From assembly GCA_013178125.1 (NCBI GenBank), contig JABLXJ010000003.1:1-64000 (forward strand): 64,000 bases of DNA, given 5' to 3'. This document shows, piece after piece, positions 47-43,661 of this stretch; position 1 is the first letter of the stretch, and every line of letters starts with the position of its first letter. The stretch is from Bacillota bacterium. GTDB taxonomy: Bacteria; Bacillota; SHA-98; Ch115; JABLXJ01. The position numbers and the translations under genes were made by a program. Below the pieces are notes generated by a model. It saw only the letters and a list, made by a program, of their open reading frames with translations, did not search any database and was not told where the DNA came from.

Positions 47-120
47 GTTAAAACCCTTTTCCTTCTTTAGAAAATTTAACACCATAACGAAGTCCCTACC
101 AATACCTCTCCACCTTTAGT

Positions 121-176
121 CACTGTTAGGAGCTATCAGCCCTAATATCAGGCGTTAGGCGAACCCCATCGCCGGT
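121..176 (-). ncRNA. Fluoride riboswitch (crcB motif), copy A
   Basis: Read on the minus strand, this matches the fluoride aptamer core. A GGCG/CGCC stem (170-173 with 158-161) closes a loop whose GGGGUU (162-167) pairs with AGCUCC (129-134), forming the pseudoknot. Between them is a second hairpin (139-154) with an AGGGCUGAU segment, as in the Thermotoga petrophila example. Downstream, a terminator-like pairing remains (CCTAACAG with TTGGTAGG) but has a mismatch and lacks a T-run, so the expression platform looks eroded. The aptamer is seen; function is inferred from the motif. Confidence 0.85.
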
Positions 177-347
177 TCTACCCAACATTGCTGCCGAACT
201 AGTATCATGCTCATGAGTCGCTTTGTCCTTCAGCTCTGGTGCTAAGGCTGGTCAACCGCGAGGCATCATACCTCCGACTTAGTCGGGGATGATTGACTAC
301 TTAGGAGCATATTGGATGATCTATCCAACTTATATTTTCGATATTAA

Positions 348-14297: not shown

Positions 14298-14319
14298 CAT
14301 GGCGGAAGGATAAAAAGTC

Positions 14320-14488
14320 TGCCTTCGGGGCACGGTGAGGGGAGTATCTGGCGTCAGAGAGCTAGCATCGCTCGCTCCCCAATTCCGGACCGGCGGTGAT
14401 GCCTCCTCGCGAGGACGAGCCCGTCAGCCTCAACGGTGGAGCCGGTGGGAATCCGGGGCCGACAGTAAAGTCTGAATGGGAGAAGGGT
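14320..14488 (+). ncRNA. FMN riboswitch (RFN element)
   Basis: Conserved blocks occur in order: CCTTCGGGGCACGGTGA, AATTCCGGACCGGCGGTGAT, GAGCCC, CCGGTGGGAATCCGG, GCCGACAGTAAAGTCT and GAATGGGAGAAGG, the last pairing with the opening CCTTC. The second stem carries an extra GGGGAG...CTCCCC hairpin of about 45 bases. The usual GCCCGCGAG block reads GCCCGTCAG. No riboflavin gene lies downstream. The following hairpin near 14560-14600 lacks a T-run, so control of translation rather than termination is possible. Confidence 0.88.
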
Positions 14489-14610
14489 CATAGAACAGGG
14501 AATGAGTCAAGATTCATTATAGGGAAACTGGCCTGGCGAACTGGCGAGCCCTGGCCCTGGAGAGCTGGTGGATGCCGAGGCGCACCCCGGGCTCTCTGGA
14601 CCGGATGTTA

Positions 14611-24543: not shown

Positions 24544-24894
24544 TCATGGGATATAGCGGTTATCATCATGCAAAATTATGATTGCGGGCTTAAGGTTCTT
24601 TGCCTCCTCCTGATCCACCAGGCCGTAGGCGAGAATGATAACCTTGTCGCCTGGCAGGGCGAGCCTCGCAGCGGCGCCATTTAGCCCGATGACCCCCGTG
24701 CCCCTCGCGCCTGGTATAGCGTACGTCTCGAACCGCGCCCCGGTATTCAAGTTGAATACCTCGACCTTTTCGTTCGGGAGGATATTGGCAAGATCGAGGA
24801 GCTCCTCGTCTATGGTTATGCTACCAACATAATTAAGGTCGGTCTCCGTGACCGTGGCGCGATGTATTTTGGATTTAAGCATGGTTACAAGCAT
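24544..24894 (-). CDS. panD: Aspartate 1-decarboxylase (pyruvoyl type)
   Basis: 116 residues; makes beta-alanine for pantothenate. The self-cleavage site is YVGSITID with Gly24-Ser25, matching the E. coli numbering and supporting this start. The chain then gives the beta and pyruvoyl alpha subunits. It overlaps the end of panC by ten bases. Confidence 0.96.
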
Positions 24895-25766
24895 TTCCGG
24901 ACACCTCGATCTTCGGATGCCTCGATGATGATATTGTCAATAAGCCTGGTTTTCCCTATTTTTACGGCAATCGCGAGGAGAACCTCACCCTGACCCGCGA
25001 GATTATCGAGTGGCTCCAGGTCGGAAAAGCGACAGGCTTCCACATAATCAATGCGGGCGATGGGGCAAGATTCAAGCATACGCTTTACAGTTTCTACAAT
25101 GTTTGCAGCGCTGCGTTCACCGGAATCGATAGCCTGCCTCGCAGCCTCAAGGCTTTGCGGGATGATCCGGGCGGCCTCCCTTTCGGCAGGGGAGAGGTAA
25201 ACGTTGCGCGAGCTCATGGCCAGCCCGTCAGGCTCCCTCACTGTTGGGACGGGAACGATCCTCACGGCGAGATTCAAGTCCTCCGTCATCCGTTGCATTA
25301 TCCGGAGCTGCTGCGCGTCCTTTTGCCCAAAATAGGCGCGATCGGGCTGGACAATATTGAATAGCTTTAAGACCACCGTGGCCACACCCCTGAAATGACC
25401 CGGCCTGAAGCGGCCACAGAGCTTATCGCTGAGCCCTTTGACCTCGACGTAGGTGGAATAGTCCTTAGGGTAGATTTCCTCGACTTCTGGCGCGAAAACG
25501 GCATCAACCCCCACGCTTTGAGCGAGTTCAAGATCTCGTTTAAGGTCCCTCGGGTATTGGGCAAAATCCTCTTGAGGGCCAAATTGCGTGGGATTCACGA
25601 AAATGCTCACGACCACGGTGTCATTCTCACTGCGCGCGGTTCGCATGAGGGTGAGATGGCCCTCGTGAAAGTAGCCCATTGTGGGGACAAAGCCAACCGT
25701 TTTGCCTCCGTTCCGCGCATTACGCACGAAATCACGAATCTCCTTTATCGTCTTGCATGTAACCAT
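24885..25766 (-). CDS. panC: Pantothenate synthetase
   Basis: 293 residues; ATP-dependent joining of pantoate and beta-alanine. [13 protein letters not shown] carries the nucleotide-binding HIGH-like motif. [42 protein letters not shown] and SSRNVYLS are intact. Normal length. Confidence 0.96.
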
Positions 25767-25857: not shown

Positions 25858-26748
25858 TCATACTTCTCTATATCTTTCTCTATCTTTCTCTACATCCGCG
25901 CCAGCCATGATTTCCCTTACAATACCGAGGGTCTCAGGAGGTATCGTAAACGAATGTTCCCGCCCAGGAAACTTGCCCGCCCTGACCTCGTGGACAAAGG
26001 CTCCGATGGCATCGGTTATGATTTGGTGTAGCTCTGCGTAACATTTGACAAACTTGGGCGTCCCCTTCTCGGAAACCCCTAAAAGATCGTGGATTACCAG
26101 GATTTGGCCGTCGCACGCCGCGCCTGCTCCGATACCGATCGTGGGGATGGTGAGGGACTGGGTGATGATCTCCGCAAGCTCCCTGGGTACGCACTCAAGA
26201 ACGATAGCGAACGCCCCAGCCTTCTCTATAGCCTTTGCGTCGTGGACCAGCCTTGTTGCGGTCTCAAGGTCCTTGCCCTGCACCTTGTACCCGCCGAGTT
26301 GATTCACGGATTGAGGTGTGAGGCCGATATGTCCCATGACGGGAATGCCGGCCCTGACTATCGCTTTTACCGTGGGAGCGAAATTCGCCCCTCCTTCAAG
26401 CTTGACTGCTTGCGCTCCCGCCTCCTTTAAGAACCTGCCCGCAGAGCGCACGGCCTCCTCAACGGAAACCTGATATGACATGAATGGCATGTCAGCGACA
26501 ACGAGCGCCCGTGCGGTCCCTCTTGCTACAGCCCTCACATGGTGGATCATTTCGTCCATCGTAACGGGGAGGGTGGAATCATATCCCAGAACCACATTGC
26601 CCACGGAGTCTCCGACCAGGATCCCGTCAACGCCGTTGGCGTCGACAAGCCTCGCCGTCGGGTAATCATAGGCTGTGAGCATTGTAATGGTCTCGTGACG
26701 TATCTTCATCTCCTGAAAGGTTTTAACCGTCACGCGTTCCTGAGTCAT
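25858..26748 (-). CDS. panB: Ketopantoate hydroxymethyltransferase
   Basis: 296 residues; transfers a hydroxymethyl group from methylene-tetrahydrofolate to 2-ketoisovalerate. [50 protein letters not shown] and [11 protein letters not shown] are present. Its ATG overlaps the end of the upstream reductase gene by four bases. Confidence 0.96.
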
Positions 26749-27659
26749 AGCCGGAACCTCCTCTCATGTAGGTCCATTCTTTCAAGCGCCTCCCTTAACT
26801 CCTGCGCCTGGTCTCGCGTAATGGCCCCCTTTTCCTCGGCGAGCCTCACCGTGTAAAGGCCGAGAACGGAATAGAGTGCAACATTTTCCTTGCCCACCTT
26901 CGAAAGCGCCTCAAGATGGCCTTTTACAACCTCGGAATCGCCTCTGGCTATGGGCCCTGTAAGCGCCTGGGTCGGGCCCACCTGCCGAATATTTTTGACA
27001 GTTCCCTCTATAAGAGGCCAAAGCGCCTGAAGGGCGTCCCGTTCCGAAAGCCCAAGCCCGCGATAAATGCTTACGCTAAAATGAATGAGCGAGACCAGGT
27101 AATTTGATGCGACCACGGCCGCCGCGTGATAGAGGGGCTTTGCCGATGTGGAAATCACAAAGGGTTTTGTATCCATATCCATCGCAAGGGCCTTTGCAAC
27201 CTGGATAGCCTCCTCGTCGCCCTCGATGGCCATGAGCGATCCGGGCAGGGCAACCAGGGCAGCCTCAACGTCTGCGAAGGATTGAAGCGGATGCATTGAA
27301 GCCACGTGGGCCCCGAATTCCCTGGCAACGCTAAGTGCCTCGGAGGGAAGAAAGCCGCTTGCGTGAATGACCACCTGCCCCCTGCGAAATCCTTTGTTGC
27401 TGGCGACCTCCCGCGCGACCTTTGCGATTTCCCGGTCCGGTGTAGTTACAAACACCACCTCAGCGGAAGATGCGCAGGTAGTCGCGTCATCGGTTACAAT
27501 CGAGTCGACTCTCGCCGCGAGCGACGCCGCGTGAGACCTGGTTTTGCTTGTCACTGCCGAAATCTCATATCCCTTCTGGCGCAGGAGTATCCCAAACGTG
27601 GACCCCACCTTTCCGGCGCCGATCAAGGCGATCCGCGGCTTATGCATCTGGCAGTGCAT
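26745..27659 (-). CDS. panG: DUF2520 Rossmann protein, likely ketopantoate reductase PanG
   Basis: 304 residues. The N-terminal dinucleotide fold ([15 protein letters not shown]) is followed by FVTTPDREI, a HASG segment, ASMHPLQSF, and a helical C-terminal half with [12 protein letters not shown]. This matches the Rossmann-like/DUF2520 family, whose Francisella and Enterococcus members (PanG) reduce ketopantoate. First gene of a panG-panB-panC-panD operon with no classical panE, so it should supply that step. The start follows GGAGGTGAATAGGG. Confidence 0.85.
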
Positions 27660-27686
27660 CCCTATTCACCTCCGAAACCCCTTCGC

Positions 27687-27722
27687 AAAAAGTGACACCC
27701 CCGGGGATAGTCCGGAGGTGCC
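27687..27722 (-). terminator. Attenuator hairpin in the pan operon leader
   Basis: Minus strand: GGCACCTCCGG (27722-27712) pairs with CCGGGGGTGTC and is followed by ACTTTTT, about 28 bases before panG. Loop and 3' arm bases CTATCCCCG (27710-27702) are exactly complementary to CGGGGATAG earlier in the leader (27758-27750), which could form an antiterminator. Confidence 0.65.
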
Positions 27723-27838
27723 ACAAAAATTCTCTCCTCACGTCAAGCCCTATCCCCGTCCCGGTCCTGCGCGGATCCAGGCGGGTTCATGCGAAAACAG
27801 GCTTTTGGCTGGCGTCAGTCGTTGCCATTGACACTTAT

Positions 27839-27867
27839 ATTTTAACATCTAAATAGAAGTAGCACAA
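27839..27867 (-). promoter_or_regulatory. Promoter of the pan operon
   Basis: Minus strand: TTGTGC (27867-27862), 17-base spacer, TAAAAT (27844-27839). This implies a leader of about 170 bases before panG. Confidence 0.6.
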
Positions 27868-28005
27868 GGGGAACGAATCCGGAAGGCCAGATATTTTCAT
27901 CTTGATGCCCAGGGGGTTTAATCATTTCAGGTAGGGAGTCAATGGGGAGGCGTGGATCAAGGTGAGATCAAGGCGAGATTAGGGCGCCCTGGCGCTCTGA
28001 ATCTC

Positions 28006-28035
28006 CTTGACAGTCGGTGTCAAGTCAGGTATCAT
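28006..28035 (+). promoter_or_regulatory. nad operon promoter overlapping a palindrome
   Basis: TTGACA (28007-28012), 17-base spacer, TATCAT (28030-28035). CTTGACA-GTCGG-TGTCAAG (28006-28024) is a perfect seven-base inverted repeat covering the -35 box, so a repressor site. A niacin-responsive repressor such as NiaR is one candidate; its regulator gene is not in the window. Confidence 0.7.
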
Positions 28036-28071
28036 GTCAGTAAGAAAATGGTTTAAGGGGGCGGGGCAGGA

Positions 28072-29010
28072 TTGCCTTGCAACGTAGAGATATCGCACGA
28101 AGCGGAGACGGCGAGCTTCATGGAGAGGGTGCACCGCTTAAAGAAGGAAAGGAATGCCATCATTCTCGCGCACAATTATCAAATTGGGGAGGTCCAGGAT
28201 GTAGCGGATTTTGTGGGTGATTCCCTCAAATTGAGCCAGATAGCCGCAAAAACGGATGCTAAAGTTATCATCCTCTGTGGAGTCCGTTTCATGGCGGAGA
28301 GCGCCGCGATCTTGGCTCCTGATAAAGTGGTAATATTGCCTTCCATAGATGCTGGATGCCCAATGGCAGACATGGTCACTCGCGAATCGTTACTGGAAAG
28401 GAAAAAGGATCTGCCGGGTGTGCCCGTTGTTTGTTATGTGAATTCTTCGGCAGAGGTTAAGGCGGAAAGCGACATATGCTGCACCTCATCGAATGCCGTG
28501 CGAATCGTGAAATCGCTCTCCGAAGATACCGTGTTATTTGTGCCTGATAAAAATCTGGGTAGTTGGGTGGCAAAACAGGTTGATAAAAAGGTGATCCTGT
28601 GGGAAGGTTATTGTTTGACCCACCAGCGAGTGACTCCGGAGGAGGTGCGTAAGGCCAAAGCAGCCCATCCTGATGCGGTTGTGATGGTACACCCTGAGTG
28701 CCGACCAGAGGTTGTGGACCTTGCCGACGTTGTGTGCAGCACGGAGCAGATGGCTCGCTATGCTCGTGAGTCACCCGTTCATAAATTTCTGGTTGGGACG
28801 GAAATGGGACTTATTTACAAACTCCAAAAGGATAATCCCGAGAAGCAGTTTTATCTTCTCTCGCAGGGCCTCATCTGTCCAAATATGAAGCGGACCAGCC
28901 TGCGCCATGTCCTGGATGCCCTTATGACTCTCGAGCCCAGGATAACCGTGTCTGATGAAATCCGAATCAGGGCAAAGAGGGCCCTCGACAGGATGCTCGC
29001 TGTGGGTTAG
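28072..29010 (+). CDS. nadA: Quinolinate synthase A
   Basis: 312 residues; condenses iminoaspartate with dihydroxyacetone phosphate using a [4Fe-4S] cluster. By spacing, the cluster ligands are Cys96 (DAGCPMAD), Cys181 (GYCLTH) and Cys269 (GLICPNM). Further matches: [24 protein letters not shown] start, preceded by a G-rich stretch. First gene of nadA-nadB-nadC-pabB-pabC. Confidence 0.95.
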
Positions 29011-43162: not shown

Positions 43163-43433
43163 AGCTGGTGGCCATCGAAGCTGCTCCGGTACACGCGTGT
43201 ACGTCTTTTTTGATCCGAGAGTAGGCTCGGAGAGGAGATAAGATCCGCGGGATGAAATAAATAAAGGTGCAACGAAAGTAAAAAAGGAGAGCGCTCCAGA
43301 AGGAGAATTAGAGTGAGACGCGAATAAACAATAGCAGATAGTCAAATATGGATAAAATTGTAAATGTCGGGCATGGCGAATGATGAATCAATAAAACTAT
43401 ATCTCTAGGACCTAATTAAATATTGAATCGACA

Positions 43434-43605
43434 GGATAGCGGGTTCCCCATAAAAGCGGGGATTAAAAGGGAAGCTTGGTGAAAATCCAACGCGGTCCCG
43501 CCACTGTGAAGGGTAGCTGCTTTGCGTTAAGCCACTGGGCCTTGTGAGGCCTGGGAAGGTGCAAAAGCGGCAAAGACCCTGAGCCAGGAGACCTGCCCGT
43601 TATCC
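43434..43605 (+). ncRNA. Cobalamin riboswitch
   Basis: P1 is formed by GGATAGCGGG and CCCGTTATCC. The core holds GGGAAGCTTGGTGAAAATCC, CGGTCCCGCCACTGTGAAGG, AGCCACTGGG, AAGGTGC and GACCCTGAGCCAGGAGACC, the standard B12 box order. It precedes cbiK and the long corrinoid-heme gene run, so adenosylcobalamin or a related corrinoid should repress it. Confidence 0.95.
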
Positions 43606-43661
43606 TCACCTAACCACACGACCTACGCGGATAGGGAGGTGGGCATTATGGTTATGCGATA

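Follow-up and report, generated by a model that had tools for sequence, protein, structure and literature searches.

A single-hairpin pan motif RNA with a terminator and a competing strand in the leader of a Bacillota pantothenate operon

Pan motif RNAs (Rfam family RF01749) were described in 2010 as stems interrupted by two conserved bulged adenosines (Weinberg et al.; PMC2864571). Most of them were reported to occur in tandem, and the genes given downstream were limited to panB, panC and those for aspartate decarboxylase. As the description speaks of "most" pan RNAs, it allows single-hairpin members, and the tandem hairpin was taken here as a feature of most, not all, described pan RNAs and not as strictly defining. 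A search of the literature for a ligand or protein of the motif turned up the 2010 paper alone, while a review of riboswitch ligands lists coenzyme A (CoA) as a conspicuous gap (PMC9971707). A similar outline is found in terminator-type OFF riboswitches, such as the flavin mononucleotide (FMN) and thiamine pyrophosphate (TPP) leaders, where an aptamer-like hairpin shares a strand with the antiterminator and a terminator precedes a vitamin operon. The pan hairpin is, however, far smaller than these aptamers; the likeness is one of outline, and a riboswitch status of pan RNAs is putative. Here, we analyzed 64,000 nucleotides from a Bacillota bacterium (assembly GCA_013178125.1, contig JABLXJ010000003.1, positions 1 to 64,000; "the window"), in which an untranslated leader on the minus strand precedes the pantothenate genes panG-panB-panC-panD. 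A preliminary description of this DNA had proposed a candidate attenuator leader for this operon, lacking any known riboswitch consensus and possibly a new RNA regulator in the pantothenate or CoA pathway. Judged by homology, the leader is a one-hairpin pan motif RNA (diagnostic hairpin at 27784-27756), hence a member of an already described family and not a new regulator. Its role as a real regulatory RNA of the operon is supported by the homology of its hairpin and by the terminator/antiterminator layout.

The pan hairpin and its missing partner

At the curated threshold no Rfam family matched at the pan leader. A permissive cmscan of 601 bases against 4,227 families gave RF01749 as the best match (27752-27827, minus strand; 25.3 bits, E 0.041), below the gathering cut-off of 36.2, which is a database threshold and not a biological feature. 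The other matches in the region at E<=10 were eukaryotic long non-coding RNA and microRNA families and were rejected as noise. The matching hairpin, H2 (27756-27784, minus strand), comprises 29 nt with outer (CCG/CGG), middle (CCUGG/CCGGG) and inner (UCC/GGA) helices and the loop GCGCA. All 11 pairs form, 8 in the outer and middle and 3 in the inner part, and both conserved bulged adenosines of the pan motif are present (A27776 and A27759). Accordingly, the aligned core CCGCCUGG-A-UCC GCGCA GGACCGGG-A-CGG carries the two motif-defining bulges, and the leader shares with RF01749 the pattern CCGCYUGGAUCC...GGACCGRGACGG as well as the position in the leader of a panB/panC/panD-type operon, since panG, panB, panC and panD follow. 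It differs by its single hairpin, its score below the cut-off, panG as first gene, and a 3' tail GGAUAG in place of the usual AAGG-like tail; this tail pairs with the loop and 3' arm of the terminator.

A covariance model of H2 was built from 54 relatives with the window left out. Its match in the window, at 27785-27755, scored 37.2 bits (E 9.3e-9 over 113 kb), and genome-wide the pan leader was the sole match at E<=5 (E 2.9e-7). Elsewhere in the window the model also aligned at 11092-11054 (minus strand, 15.9 bits) with its outer part but without the apical part, probably by chance. The preliminary description had named an alignment of relatives for covariation as a check, and the covariation of H2 turned out to be strong: 95% of the cells were paired, 8 of the 11 pairs showed double changes, and none of 500 shuffles was as good.

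The first hairpin of the tandem form, H1, was not found in the window. Its best H1-like score lay below the null median, whereas 122 of 153 loci scored above 99% of the null, and an H1 covariance model run over 27600-28100 (up to 300 nt upstream) matched H2 itself and nothing else. In the relatives, H1 too is conserved by covariation. We ascribe the low Rfam score of the window to this absence. For comparison, the pan RNAs of the phylum were collected: RF01749 was present in 151 of 398 genomes and the H2 model found 175 (at differing E limits of 1e-3 and 5e-4, respectively); the H2 hairpin was obtained at 153 loci, namely 152 relatives and the window. Of the H2 loci in genomes not listed by RF01749, 20 were read, and 18 of them lie in front of panG, panB or panC by tblastn. 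Among these 20, one (L215) precedes a panG-like protein as judged by eye, and another (L220) an amidohydrolase-type protein, as at L021 and L133. Most of the 20 had no H1 near H2. The H1 model matched at L222, L230 and, weakly, L218, with a longer H1-H2 distance than usual; RF01749 at the E value used does not list them. In a check of 17 loci, RF01749 reached its gathering score in none and H2 matched in all, most of them without a recognized H1. On these sequence comparisons, H2-only pan RNAs are a recurrent form which is missed by the Rfam cut-off.

Terminator and complementary strand

The intrinsic terminator (27687-27724, minus strand) that had been noticed before panG was recovered by a terminator scan as a hairpin at 27724-27692 with a 13-bp stem and a 7-nt loop (-24.0 kcal/mol), followed by TTTTT. 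Equally, the nine-base segment pointed out in the preliminary description proved to be an exact complement: 27758-27750 (CGGGGATAG) pairs with 27710-27702 (CTATCCCCG), that is, with six loop bases of the terminator and the three that begin its 3' arm. Of dinucleotide shuffles, 1.1% contained an exact complement of at least 9 nt somewhere in the leader and 0.08% had it at this fixed place. The first three bases of the segment (CGG) also serve as the 3' outer strand of H2; pan hairpin and antiterminator thus compete for CGG. The leader thus carries, as sequence features, an intrinsic terminator and a competing antiterminator 5' of the first gene. From the geometry, the 9-bp antiterminator, which has no linker to the remaining 3' arm, should be unable to coexist with an intact terminator. 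The leader as a whole folded more stably than 200 of 200 shuffles (z -2.8). When the energy of the duplex between tail and terminator was compared with shuffled tails, the signal was moderate (p 0.03 for the window; 30% of the set at p<0.05).

The same layout recurs in many relatives. A strict terminator lies 3' of H2 in 110 of the 152 relatives, where shuffled sequences would give 4.6. Helices of at least 7 bp that start exactly on the 3' outer strand of H2 and reach the terminator were found in 38%, compared with 10% for shuffled terminators; mostly they involve the 5' arm of the terminator, with CGGAAGG facing CCUUUCG or CCUUCCG and CAGAGGGAU facing AUCCUUCUG as typical pairs. The last four positions of the Rfam consensus (AaGG), unpaired there, lie inside the antiterminator at loci forming the helix. 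Where the H2 strand reads CAG, the partner in the terminator is U in 12 of 17 loci, against 13 of 41 where it reads CGG (Fisher p 0.009, ignoring kinship); this count was made with that position free, and a count that required pairing was discarded as circular. One example is the tandem pan RNA of Bacillota DeMMO5_7 (PanB 65% identical), in which CGGGAGGUA after H2 faces UACCUUUCG in the 5' arm of the terminator.

The operon, its promoter and genes under other pan RNAs

The leader is followed on the minus strand by panG (26745-27659), a ketopantoate reductase-type gene (Rossmann-like and DUF2520 domains; PF10728, PF10727), panB (25858-26748; TIGR00222), panC (24885-25766; TIGR00018) and panD (24544-24894; TIGR00223), the latter three above the NCBIfam cut-offs. 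A GGAGG ribosome binding site lies about 9 nt 5' of the panG start codon at 27659. Relatives of PanG in the phylum reach 51% identity, and the panG genes closest to the one studied here sit, by their positions, just 3' of pan RNAs. The promoter put forward earlier is readable as TTGTGC (-35, 27867-27862), 17 nt and TAAAAT (-10, 27844-27839), with 8 of 12 consensus matches and an extended -10 TGT at 27847-27845. As a candidate (27839-27867, minus strand) it is weak: a promoter scan reported none on the minus strand, this one being below the threshold of the tool, and it forms the weakest part of the whole observation. From its probable start at 27832, the leader (27660-27832, minus strand) would run about 172 nt to the panG start codon; the preliminary description gave about 150 bases. 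Divergent from the pan operon, a strong sigma-70-type promoter (11 of 12 matches; 28007-28035, plus strand) precedes nadA; it opens with the inverted repeat TTGACAgtcggTGTCAA, which could be a repressor operator. Aptamers above the Rfam cut-off were found elsewhere in the window for cobalamin (43424-43614, plus strand), FMN (14317-14491, plus strand) and fluoride (120-182, minus strand).

Genes for uptake, too, lie downstream of other pan RNAs. A PanS-type ketopantoate/pantothenate transporter follows at L018 (300 bits to NF047939, below the curated cut-off of 400), and similar N-termini were seen at L103, L105, L109, L141, L162 and L189. Pan RNAs precede energy-coupling factor (ECF) transporter S components (L016, L161 and others), a BioY-family protein (L026), OPT-family transporter genes (L124, L145 and, by Pfam, L149) and YhdT/DUF997 (L191), a partner of the pantothenate symporter PanF. 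The amidohydrolase-type gene at L021 was assigned by Pfam, those at L133 and L220 by similar N-termini; together with the OPT genes they are candidates for uptake or salvage of pantothenate compounds. Since genes of synthesis and of uptake stand under one RNA, the signal read by it points to pantothenate or CoA supply. At L012 and L055 the pan RNA is followed by a BirA-like gene and, after it, a gene for an ECF S component; the 2010 description does not mention such a link between pantothenate control and birA. At five loci (L016, L161, L165, L167 and L193), a GAGG-like ribosome site lies a few bases 3' of H2, ahead of the gene for an ECF S component, and no terminator was found; here pan control may act on translation.

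In 16 other genomes of the class we found no pan RNA with a convincing score, no matching panG and no homologous leader, and a scan of named genomes for PanG gave no match. PanB shares 53-58% identity with class relatives and is closer to genomes from outside the class (65% versus 57%). A horizontal acquisition of the operon together with its leader is possible. Among 80 named records, the H2 model located a pan hairpin upstream of panB in 35, whose titles include Dehalococcoidia, Chloroflexi, Deltaproteobacteria, Syntrophaceae, Myxococcales, Nitrospina, Nitrospinota, Hydrogenedentota and Actinomycetota.

A probable OFF switch and its alternatives

The simplest reading of the locus is an OFF switch, in which the H2-only pan RNA, when closed or bound, permits termination before panG-panB-panC-panD; we regard this as probable, and infer the direction of the switch, the binding of a factor and the identity of the signal. 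H2 would be closed, probably stabilized by a ligand or a protein reporting enough pantothenate or CoA. The closed hairpin would keep its 3' outer strand CGG, the terminator would form and transcription would stop. With the outer helix of H2 open, the antiterminator 5' strand CGGGGAUAG (27750-27758, minus strand) would pair with CUAUCCCCG in the nascent terminator (27702-27710, minus strand), block terminator nucleation and let RNA polymerase enter the operon.

The sequences show the homology and covariation of H2, the terminator, the complementary strand overlapping H2 and the recurrence of this layout in many relatives. The reading is further favored by the panG relatives next to pan RNAs, the U partner of the CAG strand, the DeMMO5_7 leader and the transporter genes under other pan RNAs. 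In its favor, too, the mutually exclusive folds proposed in the preliminary description are nearly equal for a transcript ending at 27702 (-39.3 kcal/mol for the antiterminator and -40.2 for its rival, within 1 kcal/mol).

Several observations weigh against such a switch. Once complete, the terminator beats the antiterminator by 11 kcal/mol (-58.0 versus -46.7). The choice of fold would therefore have to be kinetic or driven by a factor; the energies of both states make termination the likely default and place the decision within about 10 nt of transcription. The antiterminator of the window overlaps only the loop and three stem bases of the terminator, while that of most relatives involves the 5' arm. 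About half of the terminator-bearing relatives have no antiterminator helix of at least 6 bp starting on the H2 strand. Some pan RNAs (such as L016, L161 and L165) seem to sit directly 5' of a ribosome binding site, and no terminator was found for them; the weakness of the candidate promoter counts on the same side.

What would close the hairpin is a separate matter. With the same pan RNA and terminator, the sensor could be an RNA-binding protein that recognizes the A-bulged hairpin instead of a small molecule bound by the RNA, and for this we see an even chance. Protein recognition was suggested for the tandem form by Weinberg et al. (PMC2864571), and a lone double-bulged hairpin of 29 nt would make a small aptamer; on the other hand, the window and other loci have just one recognizable hairpin, which speaks against an obligatory dimer, the operon in the window contains no regulator gene, and the literature searched names no pan-binding protein. 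That the 29-nt A-bulged hairpin alone senses CoA or a compound of the pantothenate pathway appears unlikely to us; pan RNAs would then be the riboswitch class still missing for the CoA pathway, and their control would extend to transporters of pantothenate compounds. A similarly low probability was assigned to a decayed, non-functional pan RNA that has lost H1 and left a constitutive terminator or no regulation. The absent H1 and the lack of pan RNAs in 16 other genomes of the class would fit decay, but H2 is intact with 11 of 11 pairs and both bulged adenosines, terminator and complementary strand are preserved, and H2-only loci recur 5' of pan genes in other genera.

Two further mechanisms fare worse. 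Ribosome-mediated attenuation would require a leader peptide, for which the 15-codon open reading frame MNPPGSAQDRDGDRA overlapping H2 could serve; its ATG at 27790 starts a frame with three codons for aspartate, the substrate of PanD. We consider it very improbable, as no ribosome binding site was seen by eye before this ATG, the frame lacks a run of valine or leucine codons, and it covers a hairpin in which compensatory changes preserve the helix among relatives. A T-box leader sensing uncharged tRNA, the faint likeness noted in the preliminary description, is to be dismissed almost entirely. The resemblance lies in GUGGCACC, which recalls a UGGN box, and the segment in question (GTGGCACC) is the 5' arm of the terminator. 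Stem I and a specifier are missing, the roughly 108 nt of leader before the terminator are accounted for by the pan hairpin, and the Rfam search of the region gave no T-box match at E<=10. This search, which the preliminary description had named as a further check, thus refuted the T-box.

For the pan motif, a candidate in the regulation of the CoA pathway, the literature searched names no sensor, and the data given here sharpen this question. The comparison ties pan RNAs to transcription terminators, with the 3' outer strand of the hairpin predicted to double as antiterminator at many loci. For annotation, H2-only pan RNAs fall under the Rfam cut-off. Finally, the lone H2 speaks against a strict need for two hairpins and offers a minimal construct for testing.
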